Source: an uncultured Bacteroidales bacterium
Lineage (GTDB): Bacteria; Bacteroidota; Bacteroidia; Bacteroidales; F082
Direction of reading: 5' to 3'
Assembly (NCBI GenBank): GCA_946184615.1
Contig: CAMHFN010000006.1
Coordinates: forward strand, 1 to 64,000
Length of the DNA stretch: 64,000 nucleotides
The translations under genes were made by a program, and so were the position numbers. The notes below the pieces were generated by a model. The model had not been told where the DNA came from, did not search any database, and worked only from the letters and a program-made list of their open reading frames with translations. Shown in pieces: positions 6,773 to 58,304 of the stretch; within the stretch, counting starts at the first letter, position 1, and the number at the start of each line of letters is the position of its first letter.

Positions 6773-9307
6773 TTAATGTGCCTCCAACCAATTGTCGCCC
6801 GTATTAATCTCAACGAGGACCGGCACGGAAAGCGGCATCGCATTGACCATCTTTTCGTTGACCATGGCTTTTAGTGTGTCCAGCTCATCGAGACGGGCAT
6901 CGAACACCAATTCGTCGTGGACTTGCAGAATCATCTTCGACTGCAAATGGAGCCGTTCGATCTCCCGTTGAATGCTAACCATAGCGATCTTGATCATATC
7001 GGCTGAGGAACCTTGGATGGGTGCGTTGATAGCATTACGTTCCGCAAAGTTACGCACTGTGGCATTAGTGGCGTTGATGTCGCGCAAATAGCGGCGCCGA
7101 CCCATAATGGTCTCGGCATAGCCTCTTTCTTTGGCAAGGGCGATACTGCGGTTCATGTATTCCTTGATGCCCGCATATTCCTCGAAATATTTCTTGATGA
7201 TGTCCGCCGCTTCGCCACGAGAGATCTCCATACGTTCAGCAAGGCCAAAAGCTGACATGCCGTAGATGATGCCGAAGTTGACCGCTTTGGCGCGGCTACG
7301 TTGCTCTTTGGTAACTTGGTCCATCGGCACATGGAACACCTTGGCAGCGGTGGCGGCATGGATGTCGTGACCAAGTTTAAAATCGTTGACCATGGCCGGA
7401 TCGCCACTAAGATGGGCGATGATACGTAACTCGATTTGTGAATAGTCGGCCGCCATTAAGGTGAACTCAGGTCCTCTGGGCACAAAGGCACGACGTATCT
7501 CACGACCCTTGGCGGTACGAACAGGGATGTTCTGCAAATTGGGGTTGTTGGAACTCAAACGCCCTGTAGCTGTCACGGCTTGGTTGAACGAGGTATGAAT
7601 CAACCCATCCTTAGGATTGATCAGGGCTGGCAGCGCATCGAGATAGGTCGACTTGAGCTTGGTGTAAGATCGGTATTCAAGAATAGTATGGATGATGGGG
7701 TGTTTCCCCGCCAACTTTTGTAGTACCTCCTCCCCTGTGGCATACTGTCCTGTCTTGGTTTTCTTGGCTTTGACATCCAGTTGCATTTTCTCAAAAAGCA
7801 CCTCGCCCAGCTGTTTCGGCGAAGCGATGTTGAACCGCACCCCCGCCATGCCATAAATATCTTCTTCAAGCTGATGGATGTGTTGACCAAACTCCTGACT
7901 GATGCCCTTCAGATTATCGCTGTCAATCTTTACACCGTTATTCTCCATCGTTCCAAGCACCTCTACCAACGGCATCTCCACATCGAAAAACAGGCGATCC
8001 ATCCCATTTTCCTGAAGCAAAGGGAGAAAAACTCTATAAAGCTCAAGGATGGCCTCATCGTTCTCATCGGGATTCCAAAGGTTGCCCATGGGTGAGAGGG
8101 TGCGTTGGAGGTACACCTCGGCGAGGTATTCCAAGGTATGGCGTTGCTCTGGGTCGATAAGGTAGTGAGCGATCATCACATCGAAGACGGGACCCTGAGG
8201 AGTGATACCCTTCCGGCGGAGACCACTGAGAATAGGTTTAAGGTTATAACCCACTTTGGTAAATTCGGGGCTCTCAATGTCAGCACGATGTTCCATCCAT
8301 TGGCTTTCGTCTTGAGAGAGAACGATGGTTAGGGAAGAGTTAGAAGTGTGAAGTGGAGCGTGGGAAGTAGAAAGTTTCCCATTTTCCACTTTCAACTCTT
8401 CTTTTTCCACGACTCCATAATCTCGAATAAAACGTTGTTTGAAGGTGCGGAACTCCAACTCGTCGAAAAGGGCCAGCAAGGCAGGGACATCGGGCGAATT
8501 GATTTCCAACTCTTCCGCATGGAACTCCACTGGAGCGTCAAGCATGATGGTAGCCAAATGTTTGGAAAGCAGACCTTGTTCCGCAAAATTCCTGACATTT
8601 TCAGCTTGTTTTCCTTTCAATTCGTCAACATGGGCGATGACGTTCTCCACACTGCCATATTTACCAATCAGCAGGGAAGCATTTTTCTCGCCGATGCCGG
8701 GGATACCAGGGATGTTGTCCGAGGCGTCGCCCCATAATCCGAGGATATCGATCAATTGCGTCGGAGTGCTGATGCCATAGCGTTCACAGACTTCTTTTGG
8801 ACCCCACACTTGTGCTGGTGCGCCGAATTTGGCCGGTTTGTAAATCAGCACATGGTCAGTAACCAGTTGTCCGAAATCCTTGTCTGGGGTCATCATATAA
8901 GTGATGAATCCTTCTTTTTCCGCTTTGCGTGACAACGTTCCGATGACGTCATCAGCTTCATAACCCTGTGCGGCATAAACCGGAATGTTAAAGCCTTCTA
9001 TTAATCTAATTATATAAGGTATAGAAGCGCGGAGGTCGTCGGGCATGGATTCTCGGTTGGCTTTATACTCGGTATATTCTTGCGTCCTCATGGTAGGCCC
9101 ATGAAGATCGAAGGCCACGCCGATATGGGTCGGTTTCTCATTTCGAAGCACGTCGTATAGGGTGTTCAGGAAGCCCATGACGGCGGAAGTGTTGAGGCCT
9201 TTTGAATTCATAGCTGGACGTCTGTTCATCGCAAAGAACGCCCTGTATATCAAGGCGTATGCATCAAGTAGAAACAGCTTTTTGACAGGTTGATCCATGG
9301 GTAACAA
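6773..9307 (-). CDS. polA: DNA polymerase I (5'-3' exonuclease + polymerase; degenerate 3'-5' exonuclease region)
   Basis: KKLFLLDAYALIYRAFFAMN; TATGRLSSNNPNLQNIPVR; MAADYSQIELRIIAHLSGD; LQVHDELVFD. Confidence 0.95.
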   Translation of the reverse strand: MLPMDQPVKKLFLLDAYALIYRAFFAMNRRPAMNSKGLNTSAVMGFLNTLYDVLRNEKPTHIGVAFDLHGPTMRTQEYTEYKANRESMPDDLRASIPYIIRLIEGFNIPVYAAQGYEADDVIGTLSRKAEKEGFITYMMTPDKDFGQLVTDHVLIYKPAKFGAPAQVWGPKEVCERYGISTPTQLIDILGLWGDASDNIPGIPGIGEKNASLLIGKYGSVENVIAHVDELKGKQAENVRNFAEQGLLSKHLATIMLDAPVEFHAEELEINSPDVPALLALFDELEFRTFKQRFIRDYGVVEKEELKVENGKLSTSHAPLHTSNSSLTIVLSQDESQWMEHRADIESPEFTKVGYNLKPILSGLRRKGITPQGPVFDVMIAHYLIDPEQRHTLEYLAEVYLQRTLSPMGNLWNPDENDEAILELYRVFLPLLQENGMDRLFFDVEMPLVEVLGTMENNGVKIDSDNLKGISQEFGQHIHQLEEDIYGMAGVRFNIASPKQLGEVLFEKMQLDVKAKKTKTGQYATGEEVLQKLAGKHPIIHTILEYRSYTKLKSTYLDALPALINPKDGLIHTSFNQAVTATGRLSSNNPNLQNIPVRTAKGREIRRAFVPRGPEFTLMAADYSQIELRIIAHLSGDPAMVNDFKLGHDIHAATAAKVFHVPMDQVTKEQRSRAKAVNFGIIYGMSAFGLAERMEISRGEAADIIKKYFEEYAGIKEYMNRSIALAKERGYAETIMGRRRYLRDINATNATVRNFAERNAINAPIQGSSADMIKIAMVSIQREIERLHLQSKMILQVHDELVFDARLDELDTLKAMVNEKMVNAMPLSVPVLVEINTGDNWLEAH

Positions 9308-9364
9308 TTTTGGTGTAAAAATAATAAAAAACTTAAAAATTTGGAGTGAATAGAAAAATTTCCT

Positions 9365-9372
9365 TATCTTTG
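9365..9372 (+). promoter_or_regulatory. Bacteroidetes-type -7 box TATCTTTG upstream of acpP
   Basis: TAnnTTTG consensus match about 55 bp upstream of the acpP ATG. Confidence 0.5.
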
Positions 9373-9426
9373 CAGGATATTTTGAAAACGAGAGAATTTT
9401 TATTTTTTAATCAAAAATTGGAAACT

Positions 9427-47956: not shown

Positions 47957-48799
47957 ATGAAACAATTCTTTACCTCTTTATTCTTGGCCCTGTTAGGATT
48001 GATGTTCCTGTCGGGTTGCCGCACACAAAACTACCCCATTTTAGGTCCTGAAGGCGAGCTTGCCTACAAAATCACCTTACCTGAAGGGTTTGACACGACG
48101 AAAGATCATTGTCCGATGGTGATTTTAATGCACGGCATCTTTTCCAGCAAGGACTACGGTCCCATGCCGCAATTGGCGAAAGGACTTGCCCAAGCCGGCA
48201 TCGCTTCCATCCGTTTCGATTTCAACGGACACGGCAAGAGTGATGGCCGCAAGCAAGACATGACCATTGAGAAGGAAATTGCCGATGCGAAGGCCATCTG
48301 GAACTATGTTCAGGGTTTACCGTATGTGAGCAGCGTAGGCTTGTTGGGCCACTCCCAAGGGGGTGTCATCGCCTCAATGGTCGCTGGACGGCTGGCCGCT
48401 GAAGGCACCCTGCCCGCTGGCGTGGTGTTGATTGCCCCTGGCTCGGTCATCAAGGAAGCCTGTCAGGGTGGCAAGTTTTTCAACGCGACTTTCGATCCTA
48501 AGGATCCACCAGAGTACATCCGTTGTTGGGGTATCTATAAACTGGGCCGCGAATACCTCGTCACCACCCAGCAACTCGACATCTTTGGCACTTCCGCCGC
48601 TTACGATGGCCCTGTGCTCCTCCTCCACGGCGACCGCGACGGCATCGTGCCGATGTGGTGCAGCGAGCGATACTTGGAGACCTACGGTTCCCCTGCCACC
48701 CTTAAGGTGGTCGAAGGTGAGAACCACACCATCACCCGACGCAGGAAAAAGGTCATTGAGGAGACGGTGGAGTTCTTCAAGAAGGTGTTTAGGGATTGA
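47957..48799 (+). CDS. Alpha/beta hydrolase (lipoprotein signal)
   Basis: PMVILMHGIFSSKD; SVGLLGHSQGGVIASMVA; LLLHGDRDGIVP; VEGENHTITRR. Confidence 0.88.
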   Translation: MKQFFTSLFLALLGLMFLSGCRTQNYPILGPEGELAYKITLPEGFDTTKDHCPMVILMHGIFSSKDYGPMPQLAKGLAQAGIASIRFDFNGHGKSDGRKQDMTIEKEIADAKAIWNYVQGLPYVSSVGLLGHSQGGVIASMVAGRLAAEGTLPAGVVLIAPGSVIKEACQGGKFFNATFDPKDPPEYIRCWGIYKLGREYLVTTQQLDIFGTSAAYDGPVLLLHGDRDGIVPMWCSERYLETYGSPATLKVVEGENHTITRRRKKVIEETVEFFKKVFRD

Positions 48800-48812
48800 T
48801 TATTGTCAAGAA

Positions 48813-49319
48813 TTAGAGAACGGCAAAGCCCTCACCATCGAGATAAGCATTCAAAAACTGTTCAGCGAGGCTGTTCGGACGGATGTTTTGCCGTGCTTCA
48901 TTCGGAGAAAACCATTGGTAGGAGTCGATCTCCCTGTTGGGTGAAAGCTCGATGGCGTCTTTCACGAAGGCCGTGAAGTTGCACATCAACGTGTTCGACG
49001 GCTCGAAGAAGCTGGTACGGTTGAACTTGATATGGCTCACTGTCATCCCCGTCTCTTCCTTGATCTCGCGACCCACGGCATGTTCTAGTTGTTCGCCACG
49101 GTTCACGTAGCCCGCCACGAGGATGAAGAAGGGGCGGCCATATTGTTTGATCAGCAGGATCTCCCCATTCTGTTCGTTGATAACGATCATGCTGACCGCC
49201 ACGTTGTACATGGGGAAGCGGTACTCCTGGCATTGCGTGCAATAAGGCACGATGCCCTCCCCTTCCAGGGGCTTTTCGATGAGCGGGGCGCCGCATTCGA
49301 AGCAATGTTTTTGGATCAT
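48813..49319 (-). CDS. NUDIX hydrolase with N-terminal zinc-ribbon
   Basis: KHCFECGAPL...YCTQCQEYRFP; GYVNRGEQLEHAVGREIKEETGM (Nudix box). Confidence 0.9.
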   Translation of the reverse strand: MIQKHCFECGAPLIEKPLEGEGIVPYCTQCQEYRFPMYNVAVSMIVINEQNGEILLIKQYGRPFFILVAGYVNRGEQLEHAVGREIKEETGMTVSHIKFNRTSFFEPSNTLMCNFTAFVKDAIELSPNREIDSYQWFSPNEARQNIRPNSLAEQFLNAYLDGEGFAVL

Positions 49320-50311
49320 AGTGTTCTCTTCTGATTGTGAATCGATGTGACCAATTCGTCGCTGATGTTATTGCCTAGCTGCCGACAGACGTCTTGGCTC
49401 CATCGCTGAGCCACCGATATAAGTGGAAAGTGCAAAGTGGAACGGCGTAAGCCCTCACCGACCGAAGGGAGGTAAAGTGGAAAGTTAGGATGCATCGATG
49501 ACGAGGATGTGATTTTGGCGTAGATATAGCCGGCGTTGAAGTTGTCACCGGCACCGACGGTACTAACTGTTTCAATGGGCTGCACGGGATATGTCTCGCA
49601 GCCATCGGGAGTATAGACCCGAATGGGGCGTGCGCCATCCGTCAGTATCAACGTGGTGCAATAGCGACTCACTTGTGCGTAGATGGCATTCCCGTCATTC
49701 AGGCCATACAGATAGTTGAAATCCTCCATCGAGCCGCGCACCACATCCGCCAGGCTCATGTTCTCTTCGACATTAGGCTTCAGGATAGGGATATCGGCAA
49801 TATAGTTTTTGCGGAAGTTGACATCATAATAAAGCCAAGCCCCCGCTTCGTGTGCTTTACGCAGCAAACCGCCCACTATTTGACGTATGGCTGGATTGAT
49901 GGCGAAGTATGACCCGAAAAGCACCACGTCGTCGCTGTTAAACTCCGGCAGCTTTCCACTGAGTGCAACGGGCGATGGATCCTTATAGAACAAGTATTGC
50001 GCATCGTTATGCTCATTGAGAAACGCCAGCGAAATGGGTGATTTGGCCTGTTCACGACGAAAGACGTATTCCGAAGACACGCCATTCTCTTTCAGATAGT
50101 TGCATATCAGGTCGCCCACGTGGTCGTTCCCCACTTCCGTCACCATGGCACAGGGAATGCCAGCCCGTCCGAGCGACACGATGCTGTTGAATGTCGAGCC
50201 ACCAGGGACCGCTTTTAGTGGTTGGTCATCCTTGAACAGGATGTCGAGGACGGTTTCTCCAATGCCGAGGACGCGAGGGGTAGGCAATTTCCTGCAATTA
50301 AAGTTAATCAA
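49316..50311 (-). CDS. PfkB-family carbohydrate kinase
   Basis: VLGIGETVLDILFKD; VPGGSTFNSIVSLGRAG; VSTVGAGDNFNAGYIY. Confidence 0.92.
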   Translation of the reverse strand: MINFNCRKLPTPRVLGIGETVLDILFKDDQPLKAVPGGSTFNSIVSLGRAGIPCAMVTEVGNDHVGDLICNYLKENGVSSEYVFRREQAKSPISLAFLNEHNDAQYLFYKDPSPVALSGKLPEFNSDDVVLFGSYFAINPAIRQIVGGLLRKAHEAGAWLYYDVNFRKNYIADIPILKPNVEENMSLADVVRGSMEDFNYLYGLNDGNAIYAQVSRYCTTLILTDGARPIRVYTPDGCETYPVQPIETVSTVGAGDNFNAGYIYAKITSSSSMHPNFPLYLPSVGEGLRRSTLHFPLISVAQRWSQDVCRQLGNNISDELVTSIHNQKRTL

Positions 50312-50323
50312 ATAAAATTATTG

Positions 50324-51772
50324 TCATACTTTTGAAAATAAATCCACCATATTAGTATCTGTAAACGATCTCCAAATCTCAAGCGTGATCATCTGATAAT
50401 CAGGGAAAAGTTCTCCTATATAGTCTATCTCAAAAACCAATCTAAAATCATTTGGATCGTTGACTGCCTGACCTTCTTTACGTGTTCCTACCCTAGCTAC
50501 TTTTATATAATACAAATCACGAATTCCCTTCCCCTTAAAATATGGCATAAAATAATAAAGTTTATTAAGGGCAACGGTTGCTGGAAATCTTTTCCCTGTA
50601 TAGTATATTTTCGCCGATCTATCAAGATACTGATCAATATTATCAGATTTGACATAACTGATAAGGACATTTTTTGTTTTGTCGTATTTCAAGCTATCAC
50701 CTGCATGCGACTTATTATCTTCAATAAGAGATTCATTTACCACAATTTCCTTAGGATACTGTTCTAGAACAGAATATAGGTCAAGTTGATGTATTGTCGC
50801 TTGTTTTTGGATAGCTTTAAGCAAAGCATTGGTAATACGCCACATCATTACCGGAGGAACAGCATTCCCAATGGCTTTATACTGTCTGATTTGAGAGACT
50901 GTATCAAGCTTGAATGTGTCAGGAAACGATTGAATTCGCGCCGCTTCACGAGGAGAAAAACGACGATATCGCCCATCAACAATAAAAACAGGGTCTGTAC
51001 TATTAAGGCTAACCTTAGCAAGGTGAGCGCTGATTGTATTGCAGGGTTCATCCAGTTGCATGGCTCGTCCTTTATTCATTTTTTCTTTTACTGCCAGCAT
51101 TCCCGTCACTGCTTTTTCGCTAAAAAATAATTTTTCGTTTTTGTTTTCATCTTCAATAATAACATTCCCAAGCACTTTTCTATCACGGGCTTTTACTGCT
51201 ATTGGAAAAACGAAACGAGAATAATCCTCGGCATTACGAAACCCAATTATAAAAACACGTTCTCTTTTTTGAGGTACACCATGTTCCCATGAGTTCAAGA
51301 GTTTATAGGTAACAAAGTACCCGGCATCTTTAAACTCTTTTAGTATCATCGGAAAAGCCTTTCCTTTATTTGCTGAAAGCAATCCTTTAACATTTTCTGC
51401 AATAAAGAAACGTGGTCGTCTTTCTTTTAAGATTTTAACCATTTCAAAAAACAGCTTTCCCCTTTCGTCTTTATAGCCCAAACGTGGAGGATTTTGCGCA
51501 GAAATAGAAAACGATTGGCAGGGAAATCCGCCTATTAACATATCAAACTCTGGAATGCTTGCTATGTCTATTTCACGCACATCTTTAACTAAACATTTAT
51601 GGTCGAAATTGTCGTTGTATATTTGAGAACAATAGGGGTCATTATCTACCGCAAAAACGATTTCAAAAGGTGTTGTTTTATACTCTTTCCCAAGATAAGA
51701 AAAGCCTCCGAGAACACCTAAATCCATACCCCCACAACCACAAAACAGAGAAGCGACTTTTATTTTTTCCAT
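50324..51772 (-). CDS. DNA (cytosine-5-)-methyltransferase with about 170-aa C-terminal extension (Dcm-1)
   Basis: VASLFCGCGGMDLGVLGG; MLIGGFPCQSFSIS; FFIAENVKGLL; QKRERVFIIGFRN; YKAIGNAVPPVMM, followed by a non-MTase C-terminal region. Confidence 0.93.
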   Translation of the reverse strand: MEKIKVASLFCGCGGMDLGVLGGFSYLGKEYKTTPFEIVFAVDNDPYCSQIYNDNFDHKCLVKDVREIDIASIPEFDMLIGGFPCQSFSISAQNPPRLGYKDERGKLFFEMVKILKERRPRFFIAENVKGLLSANKGKAFPMILKEFKDAGYFVTYKLLNSWEHGVPQKRERVFIIGFRNAEDYSRFVFPIAVKARDRKVLGNVIIEDENKNEKLFFSEKAVTGMLAVKEKMNKGRAMQLDEPCNTISAHLAKVSLNSTDPVFIVDGRYRRFSPREAARIQSFPDTFKLDTVSQIRQYKAIGNAVPPVMMWRITNALLKAIQKQATIHQLDLYSVLEQYPKEIVVNESLIEDNKSHAGDSLKYDKTKNVLISYVKSDNIDQYLDRSAKIYYTGKRFPATVALNKLYYFMPYFKGKGIRDLYYIKVARVGTRKEGQAVNDPNDFRLVFEIDYIGELFPDYQMITLEIWRSFTDTNMVDLFSKV

Positions 51773-53238
51773 ACCAATAATTCCGTGGGTTTGAAATTTT
51801 TATCTGTAAAGGATATTTCCATGCCATCGCGCAGTTCAGCTTCAATTTGGTCGGTCTTGTAAAGTGAAACTGGGTTTCGTAGTATAAACAGTATCTTGTC
51901 TTTTTCGCTTAACATAAGCCGATAAACACAATAGTGCTCTTTGATAGTATCGGCGACGCGCCATTCATTCGCAGACATGTGAAAACCATACATTTGGATT
52001 TTTTTCTTGCTTATTGTCGTTTTTACTTCAATGTAGCGATGGTGTTCGGTGCCGTCAGCTTCAAAACTGTCAATATCGTATCCTGGATGATATGATGGAT
52101 TATCAACAATTTGGATAAGATGCATAAACTCTTCATAGCCATTAATCTTAAGGCGCATTTTTTCATGACTACAAACAATGGCTTCTCCAATATTGCCAAT
52201 ATCTTTTGTTGTAGTTGTTTCGGAAGATACAACATCTTTGATTCTACTATCGAAAACAACTTCTATTTCTTCATCGGGTTTAAGAATGGAACGTAGATCC
52301 GTTTTAAACAATTCGGGTTTCATTGACTGATTAATATAATCAAACCACAGTGGTTCAATTAACGAAAGTTCCGAAGTATCAATATCATGTTTACCATAAA
52401 AACGGTCATAACCCTTAAAGAATGATTTATCCTCATTAAAAACATTGATAGATTGTATTTGATTCTCTTTTAGAGAATAATAGCCATAATGAACACTAAG
52501 CAGATTGGCTATCTCCATGTAATCAAGAATGTCACCAGCATACCGAGTTACATCACCCTTTGTTCTTGGTTTGCCTGTTAAAGACTGCACCTTTTTGTCT
52601 CTAGGATTGTAGTACTTTATCTTTCGCCTTCGGTTATTTAATATGATTTGCGCCACTTTCTTGGGCGCAATCTTACCAGCGGTAACCCGAATGTCATTAA
52701 ATATGCAATAAGTAGCCTCTTCCGCTGATATAGACATTTCTTTAACATTATTGTTCTCTGAAAGAAGCTTGTTGCCTTCAAGAAGCACTTGTATAATAAG
52801 ACGAGCTGGCTTGAAGCGAATTTTATTCGCTATAATGTCTTTCGTGTCCTGTGGTTTCATATGTCCACCGGGAAACTGAAATGAAAGTAAAAAAAGGCGT
52901 AGGAATTGTGTTAAATCTTGTTTCTCATGAAGGAATTTTGCCATGTTGGAAGTCTCTGTAACATCCGATGTCTTATCCTCGTTATAGAATCCAAAAAGAG
53001 CCGGAATTTCAGTACGCCAATTATGAAGTGTCTTGTCAGCCATTCCAATATTCCCCGGAAACAAACGAATGGCATTAAAATACCTATCACTGTACTCTTG
53101 ACAGGAACAACGAGGAATTTTGCAACATTCATTTGCCATATAAAGCAATACGTTCTCAATATTGCTTTTAAATCGTGGCCTCACAAAATGTATTCTATAC
53201 CAATACTTGTCGGGAACTTCATAAAACCTTTTTTTCAT
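51760..53238 (-). CDS. Putative restriction endonuclease with C-terminal DUF3883/PD-(D/E)XK-like domain
   Basis: GNIGEAIVCSHEKMRLKINGYEEFMHLIQIVDNPSYHPGYDIDSFEADGTEHHRYIEVKTTISKK (GYDI...EVKTT); located between two C5-MTase genes, 4-bp overlap with 53235-54275. Confidence 0.65.
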   Translation of the reverse strand: MKKRFYEVPDKYWYRIHFVRPRFKSNIENVLLYMANECCKIPRCSCQEYSDRYFNAIRLFPGNIGMADKTLHNWRTEIPALFGFYNEDKTSDVTETSNMAKFLHEKQDLTQFLRLFLLSFQFPGGHMKPQDTKDIIANKIRFKPARLIIQVLLEGNKLLSENNNVKEMSISAEEATYCIFNDIRVTAGKIAPKKVAQIILNNRRRKIKYYNPRDKKVQSLTGKPRTKGDVTRYAGDILDYMEIANLLSVHYGYYSLKENQIQSINVFNEDKSFFKGYDRFYGKHDIDTSELSLIEPLWFDYINQSMKPELFKTDLRSILKPDEEIEVVFDSRIKDVVSSETTTTKDIGNIGEAIVCSHEKMRLKINGYEEFMHLIQIVDNPSYHPGYDIDSFEADGTEHHRYIEVKTTISKKKIQMYGFHMSANEWRVADTIKEHYCVYRLMLSEKDKILFILRNPVSLYKTDQIEAELRDGMEISFTDKNFKPTELLVWKK

Positions 53239-54275
53239 AGCTGTTTCAATAATTGTTCAGCAATCGCCTTTGCCATAAGTGGAGGTACGGCATTGCCAAC
53301 TTGTTTATACTGGCTTGTTTTTGAACCGAAAAAAACAATCGAATCTGAAAAAGATTGGATTCTAGCACTTTCACGAACTGTGGGTATGCGATTATACTTA
53401 TAATGGAAGTGGTGGCGGTGTCCTGTGTCTATTGTAAAACTCGGCGTTTGGCTATTTAGTCTTGTCCAAGCAATATGAACTTTTCGTGTGTTTTGCAGGT
53501 CAAGCGGCAGGTCTTTATAATTGCCACCATCAGGAACCATAGAAATAATTCTTTGAGTTTGTTCTGTATGGATAGTAATGTCATGATTATAAACTCCTTT
53601 ACTACCCTGACGAATTGTCTTTTGGTATTCTGACATTGCTGGGGATGGATATTCTGCGCCATTTGGTAAACTTGTTTCTGGCAAATCAGAAAGAGCTTGC
53701 TCTGATGTAACCTTACTCTCAATCGTTGGTTTGGGATATACAAATTCTTTACTGTTTAGTAATCCCACGAATACTGCACGACGGCGATTTTGAGGCACCC
53801 CGAAATCTGAAGCAAGTAAAACCTTACTGACAACCTTGTACCCTAATACCTCAAAATCTCTTATAATAGATTGTTTTATTATTCCATTCCCTATAGTTAA
53901 AATATTTGGAACGTTTTCGAGAACAAACGCTTTGGGCTTGAAATACTCAACCATTCGAACAAAGGACTTATAAAGCTTGTTGCGATCATCGTCAATAATT
54001 CGTTTACCAGCAACAGAAAACCCCTGACACGGTGGCCCTCCTATTATCACATCAACATTTTTATTATGTATCTTTTTTTTAACTTCCTTTGGTTCCAAGC
54101 TCATAAGATCAGCACATATTGTCTCGCTTCCATGATGATTTTGACGGAATGTTTCAAGGCAATCATTCCAATTATCTATTCCCACCAATACATCGTAGCC
54201 AGACTGTTCGAAACCCAGTGAGAGACCACCACAGCCACAAAAAAGATCTATAACGTTATATTTTTTCTTTGACAT
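53235..54275 (-). CDS. DNA (cytosine-5-)-methyltransferase (Dcm-2)
   Basis: NVIDLFCGCGGLSLGFEQSGYDVLVGIDN; VIIGGPPCQGFSVAGKR; FVLENVPNIL; QNRRRAVFVGL; QVGNAVPPLMA. Confidence 0.95.
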   Translation of the reverse strand: MSKKKYNVIDLFCGCGGLSLGFEQSGYDVLVGIDNWNDCLETFRQNHHGSETICADLMSLEPKEVKKKIHNKNVDVIIGGPPCQGFSVAGKRIIDDDRNKLYKSFVRMVEYFKPKAFVLENVPNILTIGNGIIKQSIIRDFEVLGYKVVSKVLLASDFGVPQNRRRAVFVGLLNSKEFVYPKPTIESKVTSEQALSDLPETSLPNGAEYPSPAMSEYQKTIRQGSKGVYNHDITIHTEQTQRIISMVPDGGNYKDLPLDLQNTRKVHIAWTRLNSQTPSFTIDTGHRHHFHYKYNRIPTVRESARIQSFSDSIVFFGSKTSQYKQVGNAVPPLMAKAIAEQLLKQL

Positions 54276-54278
54276 AAT

Positions 54279-55043
54279 TTATATTTTATTAAACACACAA
54301 TCCCGATGCCACTCAAGGAACATAGGGTTAGGCAAATGCTCTTCTGGCAAACGAATAGGCTGGTTCTTAATGCTTGCAAAATGTCTCGCATAGTAATCCT
54401 CAGTTTCGTAATGCCTTAATTTATCTGCCAAAATGATTCTATTATTCTTGTCAACACTTATGAAGCCTTGGTCGAAAGCCTTATCATACAATGCAGAAAG
54501 ACAAATGCCGTTTTCTGGATTCAACCTTTCCTTTTCATTCACCGACCACGGGATAATATGACTGGCCACCAACAGTTCAGGTATGTTAATACCTGTGATG
54601 GCGCAGTGGCTTTCATAATTGTTCAATATCATGGCACGGAAAGCATTTTGGTTTACCCGTTGTTTTACATACGCCATCCTGTCCATTCCTTTCAACAGGG
54701 AATCTTCTATTTTCAAAGATTGTTCAAAGGTCTGTTTCTGTAACCGATTCTTAATCTTCTCCGCTTCCAAAAACAAGTCTTCCTTGTTGTCGGCAAACTC
54801 ATCCCAATATGGCATGCACACACTTAATCCACCGGGCATCCCTGTGCGTCCACTATTGATAATATACGGGTCGCAGGCGGCATAATTCACCAAACGCAAG
54901 GCAACGGCATTCTCTGTCCTGTTCATCAACTTGGCTAATTCTCTAACCTCAGGAGTCGTATGGTTCAACCGACCAAATGGCAGCTGAAAATACAATGCCA
55001 ATGTCAGAATCATTTCGTCCCGTGTCCAAAGTCGTTTCGGCAT
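54279..55043 (-). CDS. HNH endonuclease
   Basis: FRAMILNNYESHCAITGINIPELLVASHIIPWSVNEKERLNPENGICLSALYDKAFDQGFISVD; N-terminal wHTH-like TRDEMILTLALYFQLPFGRLN. Confidence 0.88.
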   Translation of the reverse strand: MPKRLWTRDEMILTLALYFQLPFGRLNHTTPEVRELAKLMNRTENAVALRLVNYAACDPYIINSGRTGMPGGLSVCMPYWDEFADNKEDLFLEAEKIKNRLQKQTFEQSLKIEDSLLKGMDRMAYVKQRVNQNAFRAMILNNYESHCAITGINIPELLVASHIIPWSVNEKERLNPENGICLSALYDKAFDQGFISVDKNNRIILADKLRHYETEDYYARHFASIKNQPIRLPEEHLPNPMFLEWHRDCVFNKI

Positions 55044-55045
55044 AA

Positions 55046-55936
55046 TTATCGCAATAGCGCGTTGAAAACATTTGAATAATTTAAGATATTCTGGCGGATT
55101 TCTTTAAAGAATTTGTCATCAAAACATTTATCTCCATTTCTTGTCAAAAGAATTTCTTTTCCATCTCGCAACTCACTTTTACAGTGTGCCAATTCATTCC
55201 GTGGGATAATGATTGCTTTTTTATAATCCTCGAAGAAATTGCCATTTTTATATAAATCAGGTCTACTTTGTTCAATAATGATTTTTAACGCATGGGCTTT
55301 TTGATACGAGTCTAAATGTAAGATAATCTCCTGAATATTCTTGCCTCGCCAAACAAGTTGGCATTTATTATTGCAACTTAATGATTTTTGAAGAGTCGTT
55401 TCCCGATTTGCTGTAATGTGCTCATGGAACATCTCTAATCTTTTTTCAGTGTTGAAGTATGACTGAATTATGTTATCCATCATCGAGTCAAGTTCACTCA
55501 CCTCTGCCATCACTAATCCACGTAGGTTGTTTAAATCCTGTACCTTTTTTATTGTGGAATCAATAACGGCTTTTACTCTTTTCACAAATTCGGTGTCTGG
55601 AGTACGTCCACTATAAAAAACTCCTTCAAGTTCTTTTTCCCTACCTTTTGTTCTTAGTTCTTCAATTCCCATGGCAGAGTAGAAAACCACATCCGTAAAT
55701 ACACCCAAATCTCTGATCTTTGAGATCAATACTGCACCATTGGGTTGGTCAGAGAGATTTAGGTCCATCAGAATTAAATCGTAATCGTTATAATTAATGT
55801 CTCTCTCTTCTTTGGCTATTAACGTTTTCTCATATATAAAACCAAAATCTTCAAGATAATCTTGAAGTTGGTCTTCGATGCTCTCCACCCAATCTGCTTC
55901 ATTTTCAATCCACAATATCTTGTATTTTAGTTTCAT
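55046..55936 (-). CDS. Receiver-domain protein with C-terminal HEPN-like region (RNELAH)
   Basis: YKILWIENEADWVESIEDQL...YDLILMDLNLSDQPNGAVLISKIRDLG...DVVFYSA (receiver fold); C-terminal AIIIPRNELAHCKSE matching R-x4-H. Confidence 0.65.
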   Translation of the reverse strand: MKLKYKILWIENEADWVESIEDQLQDYLEDFGFIYEKTLIAKEERDINYNDYDLILMDLNLSDQPNGAVLISKIRDLGVFTDVVFYSAMGIEELRTKGREKELEGVFYSGRTPDTEFVKRVKAVIDSTIKKVQDLNNLRGLVMAEVSELDSMMDNIIQSYFNTEKRLEMFHEHITANRETTLQKSLSCNNKCQLVWRGKNIQEIILHLDSYQKAHALKIIIEQSRPDLYKNGNFFEDYKKAIIIPRNELAHCKSELRDGKEILLTRNGDKCFDDKFFKEIRQNILNYSNVFNALLR

Positions 55937-55940
55937 GATA

Positions 55941-58304
55941 TCAGAATTTTACTATTAGTTTGAAACCGGGTACTTCTTGTTTTTTTTCAATAGAAATTGT
56001 TCCTTTCAGAACGGTTTTGACAAAAGATGCAACATTATATAGTCCTAATCCAGAACCATTGGTAGTTGTGTACCCTTTTTCTAAAATGCTCTCAGCGTCT
56101 GCAATTTTAGGTGATAGGCCATCTCCATCATCGGAAATGGTCATGCAAATACGATCACAGTCCTTTTCAAAAACAACGTCAAAATGCTTTGCATTTGCCT
56201 TAACGGTATTTGACACCAAATTGTCTATAAAAATGCAGGCTTCCAAGGGGGCAAATTCTAAAATCTTATAGCAAGACTTATTGGAACAATGCAATTTTAA
56301 GTCCCCATAAAACTCTGGTAATACATTGTTGATGTATTCGTCTATGTAATTGACAATATCTGCTTTTATTATATCTGCATTGATACTATAGTTCGCTTTG
56401 GTGGCAAACTGAGCTATAGATGTTATTTTATCATTTGCACGAGAAATCCTCTCAACCAACTTGACCGTTTCTTCTGTGGAAAGAGACCCCCCGTTTGCTT
56501 TCCTTAAGATTTGTCCAATAGTATTATGGATAGTAGCTGCGTGAATTCGGATGTCGTGATGGTATTTTAATATGCGGTCTGTATCGAGATTGCCAACAGA
56601 AAGAAGAAATAGATTTTGTTTTGATTTCTGCTCTAACTCCATTTCGGCTTTTTCTCTTTTTTCCTTCTCTTCTTGAGCTTTCTTTTTTGCCTCTTCCGCT
56701 TTTTTCTCTTCCTCCTTCGCTTTTCGTTCAGCCTCTTCTTTCTGGCGGCGCATTTCGTCCATTTGCTTCTCAAACTCAGCGACCCTATCCAATAGATACG
56801 AGTCGTTGGTTTTTTCTACTAGTTTGCGCATGTCGTCTACCATTTGAGCTTGAAGCACTTCCGTTTCCGTTGGGTCGGCGACGATATTTGCTAAGTCTTC
56901 ATTATATTGCAGAACCGTTATCGACTTATCGTTGACCAATGACTTTATAAGTTGCAAGAAATCAACTTTACTACCAATATTTGTATACAAATGCTTGGCA
57001 GAATCTGAATCTTTATCCCCCGCCAACTGTTTTCGTGCTGTCAACGCTAAACTTTGATTAACAAAATAGTCTTTTCTCAAGAATCCTTCACCCCATAAAA
57101 CACCAACGACATAACGTTCTAATCGTCTATGGATTAGCGTAAAGTAATTTATTAATTGTCGAGATGCTTCTGTTTCGATTAAACCACCATCACGACTGGA
57201 TACCTCCTTAATAAGGTTAACATCGTCAGTCTCAACATCAACTCGACCAAACAAATCACGTGTGCCAAGAAAGCGATTGTATCCTTGCTGTTGGCGTTGA
57301 TTTAAGCCCCAGCTATCATCATTCCATTCACCATATGGCAAAATACGAAAACCATTTCTGAAAAGAAAAATGTTGCCATAACTAACCGGTTGAACCCCCA
57401 TCATTCTAGTAAATGAAGTCTTGGCGGCGTGATTCAAAAAGAAAAGACTCACTGATGCGGAATCTATTTGTGAAAAATCCTGATTTGATTCCTCAATTTC
57501 ATACATCTTAATACCACGATCAGACAGTGTTGTGTGTATTGTGTCGTTTTCAATGCGGCTTTCTATCTGTGTGGTTTTTAGTTTCAGTACATCAGCAATA
57601 GAGTTCTCAATAACTCCATTCACTTTCTTGTGAGCAGATTCGGTGTTTTTATCATTTTCCTTCATTCTGGGAGCGATTATCTCTATCTGAAAATCATCAT
57701 CAGTCCCAGAAAAAGGATTGATCATTTTTTCCAATGATTTCTTCAAACGAAGAATGTCATCCCGAGACCAATTATCACGAAGGTTTCTGAATTCTAAAAT
57801 CGTACCTGTTGAATAATTTTGAGGAAAAGTCGGGATGGAGTCTAGACTCTCATGAGGGATATCAATAGTATTAAACTCTGTCTTCTTGTTGCTTTCGAAA
57901 GACGACCAATCCACATAAAGTACTTCTGTTTTATTACTCTCTTCGCTTCTTGTTGTAAGGATGAGGTTGTTTGCTAAACGATCACACGACAATCGACCAA
58001 TACCTTTTGCCCCAGCATAGTGACGAGTAAATTTATCACGATAGGATAAATCTTCCGTTCCATCGCTTTTGGCCGAATATGCCACAAACAGCCATTTGTC
58101 TATCAAATCTTGTTTTGACATGCCTTTGCCGTTGTCGGCAATGCACAAATAGTCGTTATCAAAAGTAATCTCCACTTTTGAGGCATGAGCGTCATACGAG
58201 TTTTTCACCAACTCCAAAATGGCAATATCAGGACTTGTAATCAAATCCCTTCCCAAGATGTTTTTCAGTTCGGCACTAACTCTGAAATTCAAACTGTCTT
58301 TCAT
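55941..58304 (-). CDS. Dual-GHKL ATPase: N-terminal Hsp90/MORC/MutL-like ATPase, coiled coil, C-terminal histidine-kinase-like HATPase_c
   Basis: N-terminal AILELVKNSYDAHASKVEI / IADNGKGMSKQDL / HYAGAKGIGRLSCDRLANN; coiled coil EEAERKAKEEEKKAEEAKKKAQEEKEKREKAEMELEQ; HHDIRIHAATIHN; C-terminal FIDNLVSNTVKANAKHF / ISDDGDGL / GSGLGLYNVASFV. Start placed at internal ATG 58304, which overlaps the upstream TGA (ATGA). Confidence 0.8.
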   Translation of the reverse strand: MKDSLNFRVSAELKNILGRDLITSPDIAILELVKNSYDAHASKVEITFDNDYLCIADNGKGMSKQDLIDKWLFVAYSAKSDGTEDLSYRDKFTRHYAGAKGIGRLSCDRLANNLILTTRSEESNKTEVLYVDWSSFESNKKTEFNTIDIPHESLDSIPTFPQNYSTGTILEFRNLRDNWSRDDILRLKKSLEKMINPFSGTDDDFQIEIIAPRMKENDKNTESAHKKVNGVIENSIADVLKLKTTQIESRIENDTIHTTLSDRGIKMYEIEESNQDFSQIDSASVSLFFLNHAAKTSFTRMMGVQPVSYGNIFLFRNGFRILPYGEWNDDSWGLNQRQQQGYNRFLGTRDLFGRVDVETDDVNLIKEVSSRDGGLIETEASRQLINYFTLIHRRLERYVVGVLWGEGFLRKDYFVNQSLALTARKQLAGDKDSDSAKHLYTNIGSKVDFLQLIKSLVNDKSITVLQYNEDLANIVADPTETEVLQAQMVDDMRKLVEKTNDSYLLDRVAEFEKQMDEMRRQKEEAERKAKEEEKKAEEAKKKAQEEKEKREKAEMELEQKSKQNLFLLSVGNLDTDRILKYHHDIRIHAATIHNTIGQILRKANGGSLSTEETVKLVERISRANDKITSIAQFATKANYSINADIIKADIVNYIDEYINNVLPEFYGDLKLHCSNKSCYKILEFAPLEACIFIDNLVSNTVKANAKHFDVVFEKDCDRICMTISDDGDGLSPKIADAESILEKGYTTTNGSGLGLYNVASFVKTVLKGTISIEKKQEVPGFKLIVKF

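Follow-up and report, generated by a model that had tools for sequence, protein, structure and literature searches.

We analyzed a 64,000-nt stretch of DNA from an uncultured Bacteroidales bacterium (F082; contig CAMHFN010000006.1, positions 1–64,000), hereafter the window, in which seven minus-strand genes form a tightly packed operon. In order, they encode a C5-cytosine DNA methyltransferase (M3), a GHKL-type kinase, a protein that joins a receiver (REC) domain to a HEPN-like C-terminal domain (REC-HEPN), an HNH endonuclease, a second methyltransferase (M2), a BpuJI-type nuclease with a NOV_C domain and a third methyltransferase (M1). The stop codon of M3 overlaps the likely start codon of the kinase in the sequence ATGA (58301–58304). 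The REC-HEPN ORF was confirmed at 55046–55936 on the minus strand. Our analysis centers on REC-HEPN and the two genes that precede it.

The REC-HEPN family comprises 24 members from Bacteroidota and Firmicutes, with C-terminal identity as low as 15%. In all 23 readable loci (the window and 22 others; L014, which starts at a contig edge, was left out of the count), a C5 methyltransferase, the kinase and REC-HEPN are adjacent, with the methyltransferase on the opposite strand in L060 and L061. Among 396 Bacteroidota genomes, the eight that encode a full-length kinase are the same eight that encode REC-HEPN. A preliminary description of the window had associated REC-HEPN with a GHKL protein inside a restriction–modification (R-M) operon, and this association extends well beyond the window. 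The genes that come next differ by locus and include HNH, NgoFVII-type, AspBHI/Mrr, LlaJI-like, MTES_1575 and GmrSD genes, an integrase, a transposase or nothing recognizable; several loci have no restriction enzyme directly downstream. Because these genes vary or are absent, we regard the triad as the unit and the nuclease genes as accessories. Searches of plasmid and viral collections found no relatives. The L060 methyltransferase homolog (8101–9414) is encoded convergently to REC-HEPN; the GPPCQ and GN motif patterns present in the others are missing from it, and it is possibly divergent or inactive.

The GHKL protein contains two ATPase domains with intact ATP-site motifs. The N-terminal domain is a HATPase_c_3 domain of the MutL/MORC-like (paraMORC) type (PF13589, E=4.3e-22) with the motifs ELVKNSYDA, DNGKGM and GAKGIGR, and the C-terminal domain is a HATPase_c domain (PF02518, E=3.4e-19) with N, G1 and G2 boxes. 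The two domains are separated by a coiled coil, as read from the sequence, and a DHp-like segment whose H583 is invariant in the 20 kinases that we aligned. These features identify the partner of REC-HEPN as a complete histidine kinase that carries a paraMORC ATPase at its N terminus.

The N-terminal half of REC-HEPN had been described as a CheY-like receiver with an Asp in the phospho-acceptor position, and both points are borne out. The PF00072 match of the window protein (E=4e-5) falls below the gathering score; the family profile matches solved receivers, and an AlphaFold model based on a 17-sequence alignment has the (βα)5 fold and aligns to solved receiver structures with a TMt of ~0.7 (Foldseek). 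Receiver domains made up most of the matches when the full-length model was compared by Foldseek with PDB and viral libraries. The acceptor, D58, follows β3 and is invariant in 23 of 23 members, all of which also have an acidic residue at position 11 and a Ser or Thr at position 87. Position 111, one residue after the site of the usual β5 Lys, is Arg in these 23 members, except for a single Lys. Loss of phosphorylation, which had been raised as a possibility, is not favored. Instead, we favor retained phosphorylation in an unusual pocket, because the acceptor Asp, one Mg-binding acid, the Ser/Thr and both the acceptor His and the ATP site of the kinase are all conserved.

Single-protein searches assigned no family to the C-terminal half of the window protein, and a search of PDB sequences with the C-terminal profile gave no convincing match. 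The C-terminal helical domain carries the sequence RNELAH (R246–H251). Conservation of this motif among homologs had been set as a test that could refute the HEPN assignment, and its Arg and His proved invariant in all 24 members. The residue after the Arg is Asn or Asp, and the variants found (RNELAH, RNQLAH, RNNLAH, RDLLAH, RNLLGH, RNALGH, RNKFAH and RNTYAH) have the same style as motifs in bona fide HEPN proteins gathered with PF18735 and PF18737 (RHKIAH, RNNILH, RNSLVH and RNDIAH). Only five C-terminal columns are invariant across the family: R139, G140, R246, H251 and R281. In shuffled C-terminal halves, the pattern R[NDH]x3H arises at a rate of ~5% and the looser Rx4-6H at 59%; therefore, the conservation of the motif, and not its presence, carries weight, and chance does not explain why all 24 members keep the Arg and His.

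The structural model of this domain (pLDDT 90.4, pTM 0.85) comprises a long helix (135–160), a second helical segment (164–185), an insert, a helix that ends in the motif (234–251), a β-hairpin and a final helix (274–295). A four-helix core with an insert between helices 2 and 3 and a motif at the end of helix 3 agrees with the published description of HEPN domains (PMC3710099), a comparison of secondary structure order and not a superposition. Among sub-threshold Pfam matches, three HEPN families lead the list (HEPN_MAE_28990, RiboL-PSP and Swt1; E 0.006–0.03, two members each), and sub-threshold PADLOC matches include CARF_HEPN, Csx1 and Cas13a (E 0.003–0.06). Each is weak, but they agree with one another. 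Profile–profile comparison with HEPN proteins (hhalign) scored 23.9 (E=0.008, probability 5%), and none of ten shuffles exceeded 15.5. We consider it likely that this domain belongs to the HEPN superfamily, a strong assignment from sequence and model, short of proof by fold, and the domain is probably an RNA-cutting toxin. The PADLOC model PDC-M01B was matched by one A1 member (E=6.5e-4), which lies outside the eight A1 members rescanned singly.

Three sister loci (L099, L100 and L101) keep M3 (54–76% identity) and the paraMORC half of the kinase (58% identity in L099 and 53% in L101). Their kinase half is only 20–26% identical and is a separate open reading frame (ORF) in L100. In place of REC-HEPN, they encode a REC-like protein and a 217–240-residue protein with invariant GHG and SC motifs. 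Similarity of the latter to caspase-like proteases is weak (Pfam C25, E=0.12; PDB caspase-2, E=1.8, aligned on both residues), and we regard it as a candidate caspase-like His-Cys protease effector. A swap of this kind would be anticipated for a slot occupied by a toxic effector. In L062 and L012, M3 is 85–87% identical, as opposed to 46–56% for the paraMORC region; therefore, parts of the module appear to recombine. More distant modules are found in L102 (3053–8249) and L103 (3793–8762), where the paraMORC-kinase is followed by a receiver-like protein of 362–390 residues; L103 also encodes a methyltransferase and a Vsr endonuclease.

Domain architecture, conservation, operon structure and linkage are read here from sequence, and together they lead us to propose, with moderate confidence, that the triad is a two-component immune module guided by methylation, with REC-HEPN as the RNase output arm of DNA surveillance. 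We infer that DNA is the signal and methylation the mark of self. M3 would mark the host's own sites, and the paraMORC ATPase would sense foreign or unmodified DNA and activate the histidine-kinase half. Phosphate would then pass from H583 to D58 of the receiver, releasing or dimerizing the C-terminal HEPN domain, whose R246/N247/H251 site would cleave RNA and halt both growth and phage production, as in abortive infection. The downstream restriction genes would be separate or auxiliary layers. The triad's occurrence in distant bacteria points to an undescribed immune circuit in which RNA is destroyed in response to foreign DNA.

Several observations weigh against this proposal. The individual HEPN profile matches are weak (E 0.003–0.06) and come from other family members and not from the window protein, and the hhalign comparison spans only 25 columns around the motif. 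Foldseek searches of the C-terminal model against the PDB returned no significant match of any kind, so the HEPN fold put forward in the preliminary description is neither confirmed nor refuted by structural match; in predicted helix order and motif position it agrees with published HEPN domains. An NCBIfam scan of the C-terminal family gave no HEPN match. No experiment on any family member was found. In the receiver, the window's clade has Asn in place of the second acid at position 12, and the usual β5 Lys is absent in most members. The pocket had been called atypical, which is true of the E-N pair in this clade and of the missing Lys but less so of the family as a whole, where position 12 is Asp in 14 of 23 members. 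These departures, along with the weak match of one homolog to the inactive-receiver family iREC, would suit a degenerate pseudo-receiver that controls HEPN through kinase or ligand binding and without phosphotransfer. Given the frequent Asp at position 12, the invariance of D58 and of the acid at position 11 and an invariant kinase His, we consider such a receiver very unlikely.

The missing fold match would also be consistent with a C-terminal domain that acts as an adaptor, through which phosphorylated REC binds and activates the nucleases of the operon (HNH and BpuJI-like) and which has no RNase activity of its own. The window and some other loci do have downstream restriction genes, and an HNH gene directly follows REC-HEPN in the window and four further loci. 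However, the nucleases across loci are of unrelated types or absent, and the Arg and His of the motif are nonetheless invariant, a pattern more in keeping with a catalytic site than with a common docking surface; we therefore regard an adaptor role as unlikely. The position of the REC-HEPN gene inside the operon, a few bases from its neighbors and between methyltransferase and nuclease genes, could instead point to a timing regulator that cleaves or binds operon mRNA, or otherwise places methyltransferase before nuclease, without killing the cell. We give this idea little credence: profile searches found no DNA-binding output domain, the module is kept in loci with no nearby restriction gene, and the sister loci, with their protease candidates, are easier to reconcile with an effector.

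The proposed immune module resembles several known systems. R-M-linked two-component genes (PF19191, HEF_HK; PF19192, Response_reg_2) and their link to paraMORCs have been described (PMC8011034); there too, C5 methyltransferases and type II R-M genes are neighbors of a pair made up of a receiver protein and a soluble histidine kinase, and many of these kinases have an additional HATPase_c_3 domain. HEPN is mentioned nowhere in that paper, and the PF19192 proteins that we sampled differ from REC-HEPN in being longer (~545 residues) and having no recognized HEPN output. We rejected membership of the window proteins in PF19191 and PF19192, as neither family gave a match up to E=1. HEPN domains of the Ymh type are fused directly to paraMORCs in R-M loci (PMC3710099), which similarly couples a GHKL/paraMORC ATPase to HEPN, whereas the sensor in the window is connected to HEPN by way of a histidine kinase and a receiver. 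Detocs, a three-gene two-component defense system, also has a toxic output, but its best-described effector is an ATP-cleaving PNP (PMC11249213) and its core differs from the methyltransferase, paraMORC-kinase and REC-HEPN of the window. PADLOC (2.0.0, which may lack Detocs models) gave no match for the window REC-HEPN and only other models for the kinase. Finally, the N-terminal ATPase of the kinase matches BbrUII/HgiDII-type restriction enzymes (NF050001, E=3.5e-26, ORF residues 55–268), with a score far below the family cut-off, and outside this domain the protein is a histidine kinase rather than a nuclease. Searches of the open-access literature turned up no description of a system of this type whose output is a receiver fused to HEPN.

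R-M-linked two-component genes were reported with no output assigned to them; if REC-HEPN is the output, the role of such systems becomes directly testable. The circuit would amount to a phosphate switch on an RNase that a MORC-like DNA sensor triggers and DNA methylation restrains, and would join restriction, phosphorelay signaling and abortive infection. It would also suggest why MORC-type ATPases adjoin DNA methyltransferases. A wider reading, which we offer tentatively and at slightly less than an even chance, is that of a methylation-guided immune platform: a restriction-enzyme-like DNA sensor would have traded DNA cutting for two-component signaling, passing its alarm to interchangeable toxins, either a REC-fused HEPN RNase or a caspase-like protease, the latter encoded next to a separate receiver in the sister loci. 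Coordinates of the features are collected in Table 1.

Table 1. Features of the REC-HEPN operon and of the sister modules (window positions unless a locus is named)
Feature	Coordinates	Strand	Evidence
REC-HEPN protein, 296 aa	55046..55936	-	24 family members
Receiver domain, residues 1–125: E11, N12, acceptor D58, S87, R111	55562..55936	-	PF00072 E=4e-5; AlphaFold and Foldseek; invariants
C-terminal HEPN-like domain, residues 130–296	55046..55549	-	pLDDT 90.4, pTM 0.85; sub-threshold HEPN profiles; profile comparison
RNELAH motif R246–H251, predicted RNase active site	55184..55201	-	R and H invariant 24/24
ParaMORC-histidine kinase, 787 aa from ATG 58304: MutL/MORC-like ATPase, coiled coil, DHp-like segment (H583), HATPase_c	55941..58304	-	
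C5-cytosine DNA methyltransferase M3, third member of the conserved triad	58301..59686	-	PF00145 E=3.7e-57; linked in 23/23 loci; true start codon uncertain
HNH endonuclease, optional neighbor, also in L008, L056, L057 and L063	54279..55043	-	PF13391
Second C5 methyltransferase M2, variable part of operon	53235..54275	-	
BpuJI-type restriction endonuclease with NOV_C domain, variable part of operon	51760..53238	-	PF11564 E=1.7e-119; PF13020
Third C5 methyltransferase M1, variable part of operon	50324..51772	-	PF00145
Sister modules, separate REC-like protein and GHG...SC candidate protease	L099:7639-9049; L100:3043-4411; L101:8980-10354		

An Rfam scan of positions 48000–64000 gave no match, and a promoter scan found sites at chance level. 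The HNH protein matches NF045808 (E=2e-18) below the cut-off, which relates it to phosphorothioate-DNA restriction endonucleases. Elsewhere in the window, the 7-bp unit AGAAGAC forms a tandem array of 10.7 copies (62726–62800), at which an oxidoreductase-like frame is seemingly split into two ORFs (62352–62978 and 62854–63978), possibly reflecting a phase-variable or disrupted gene.
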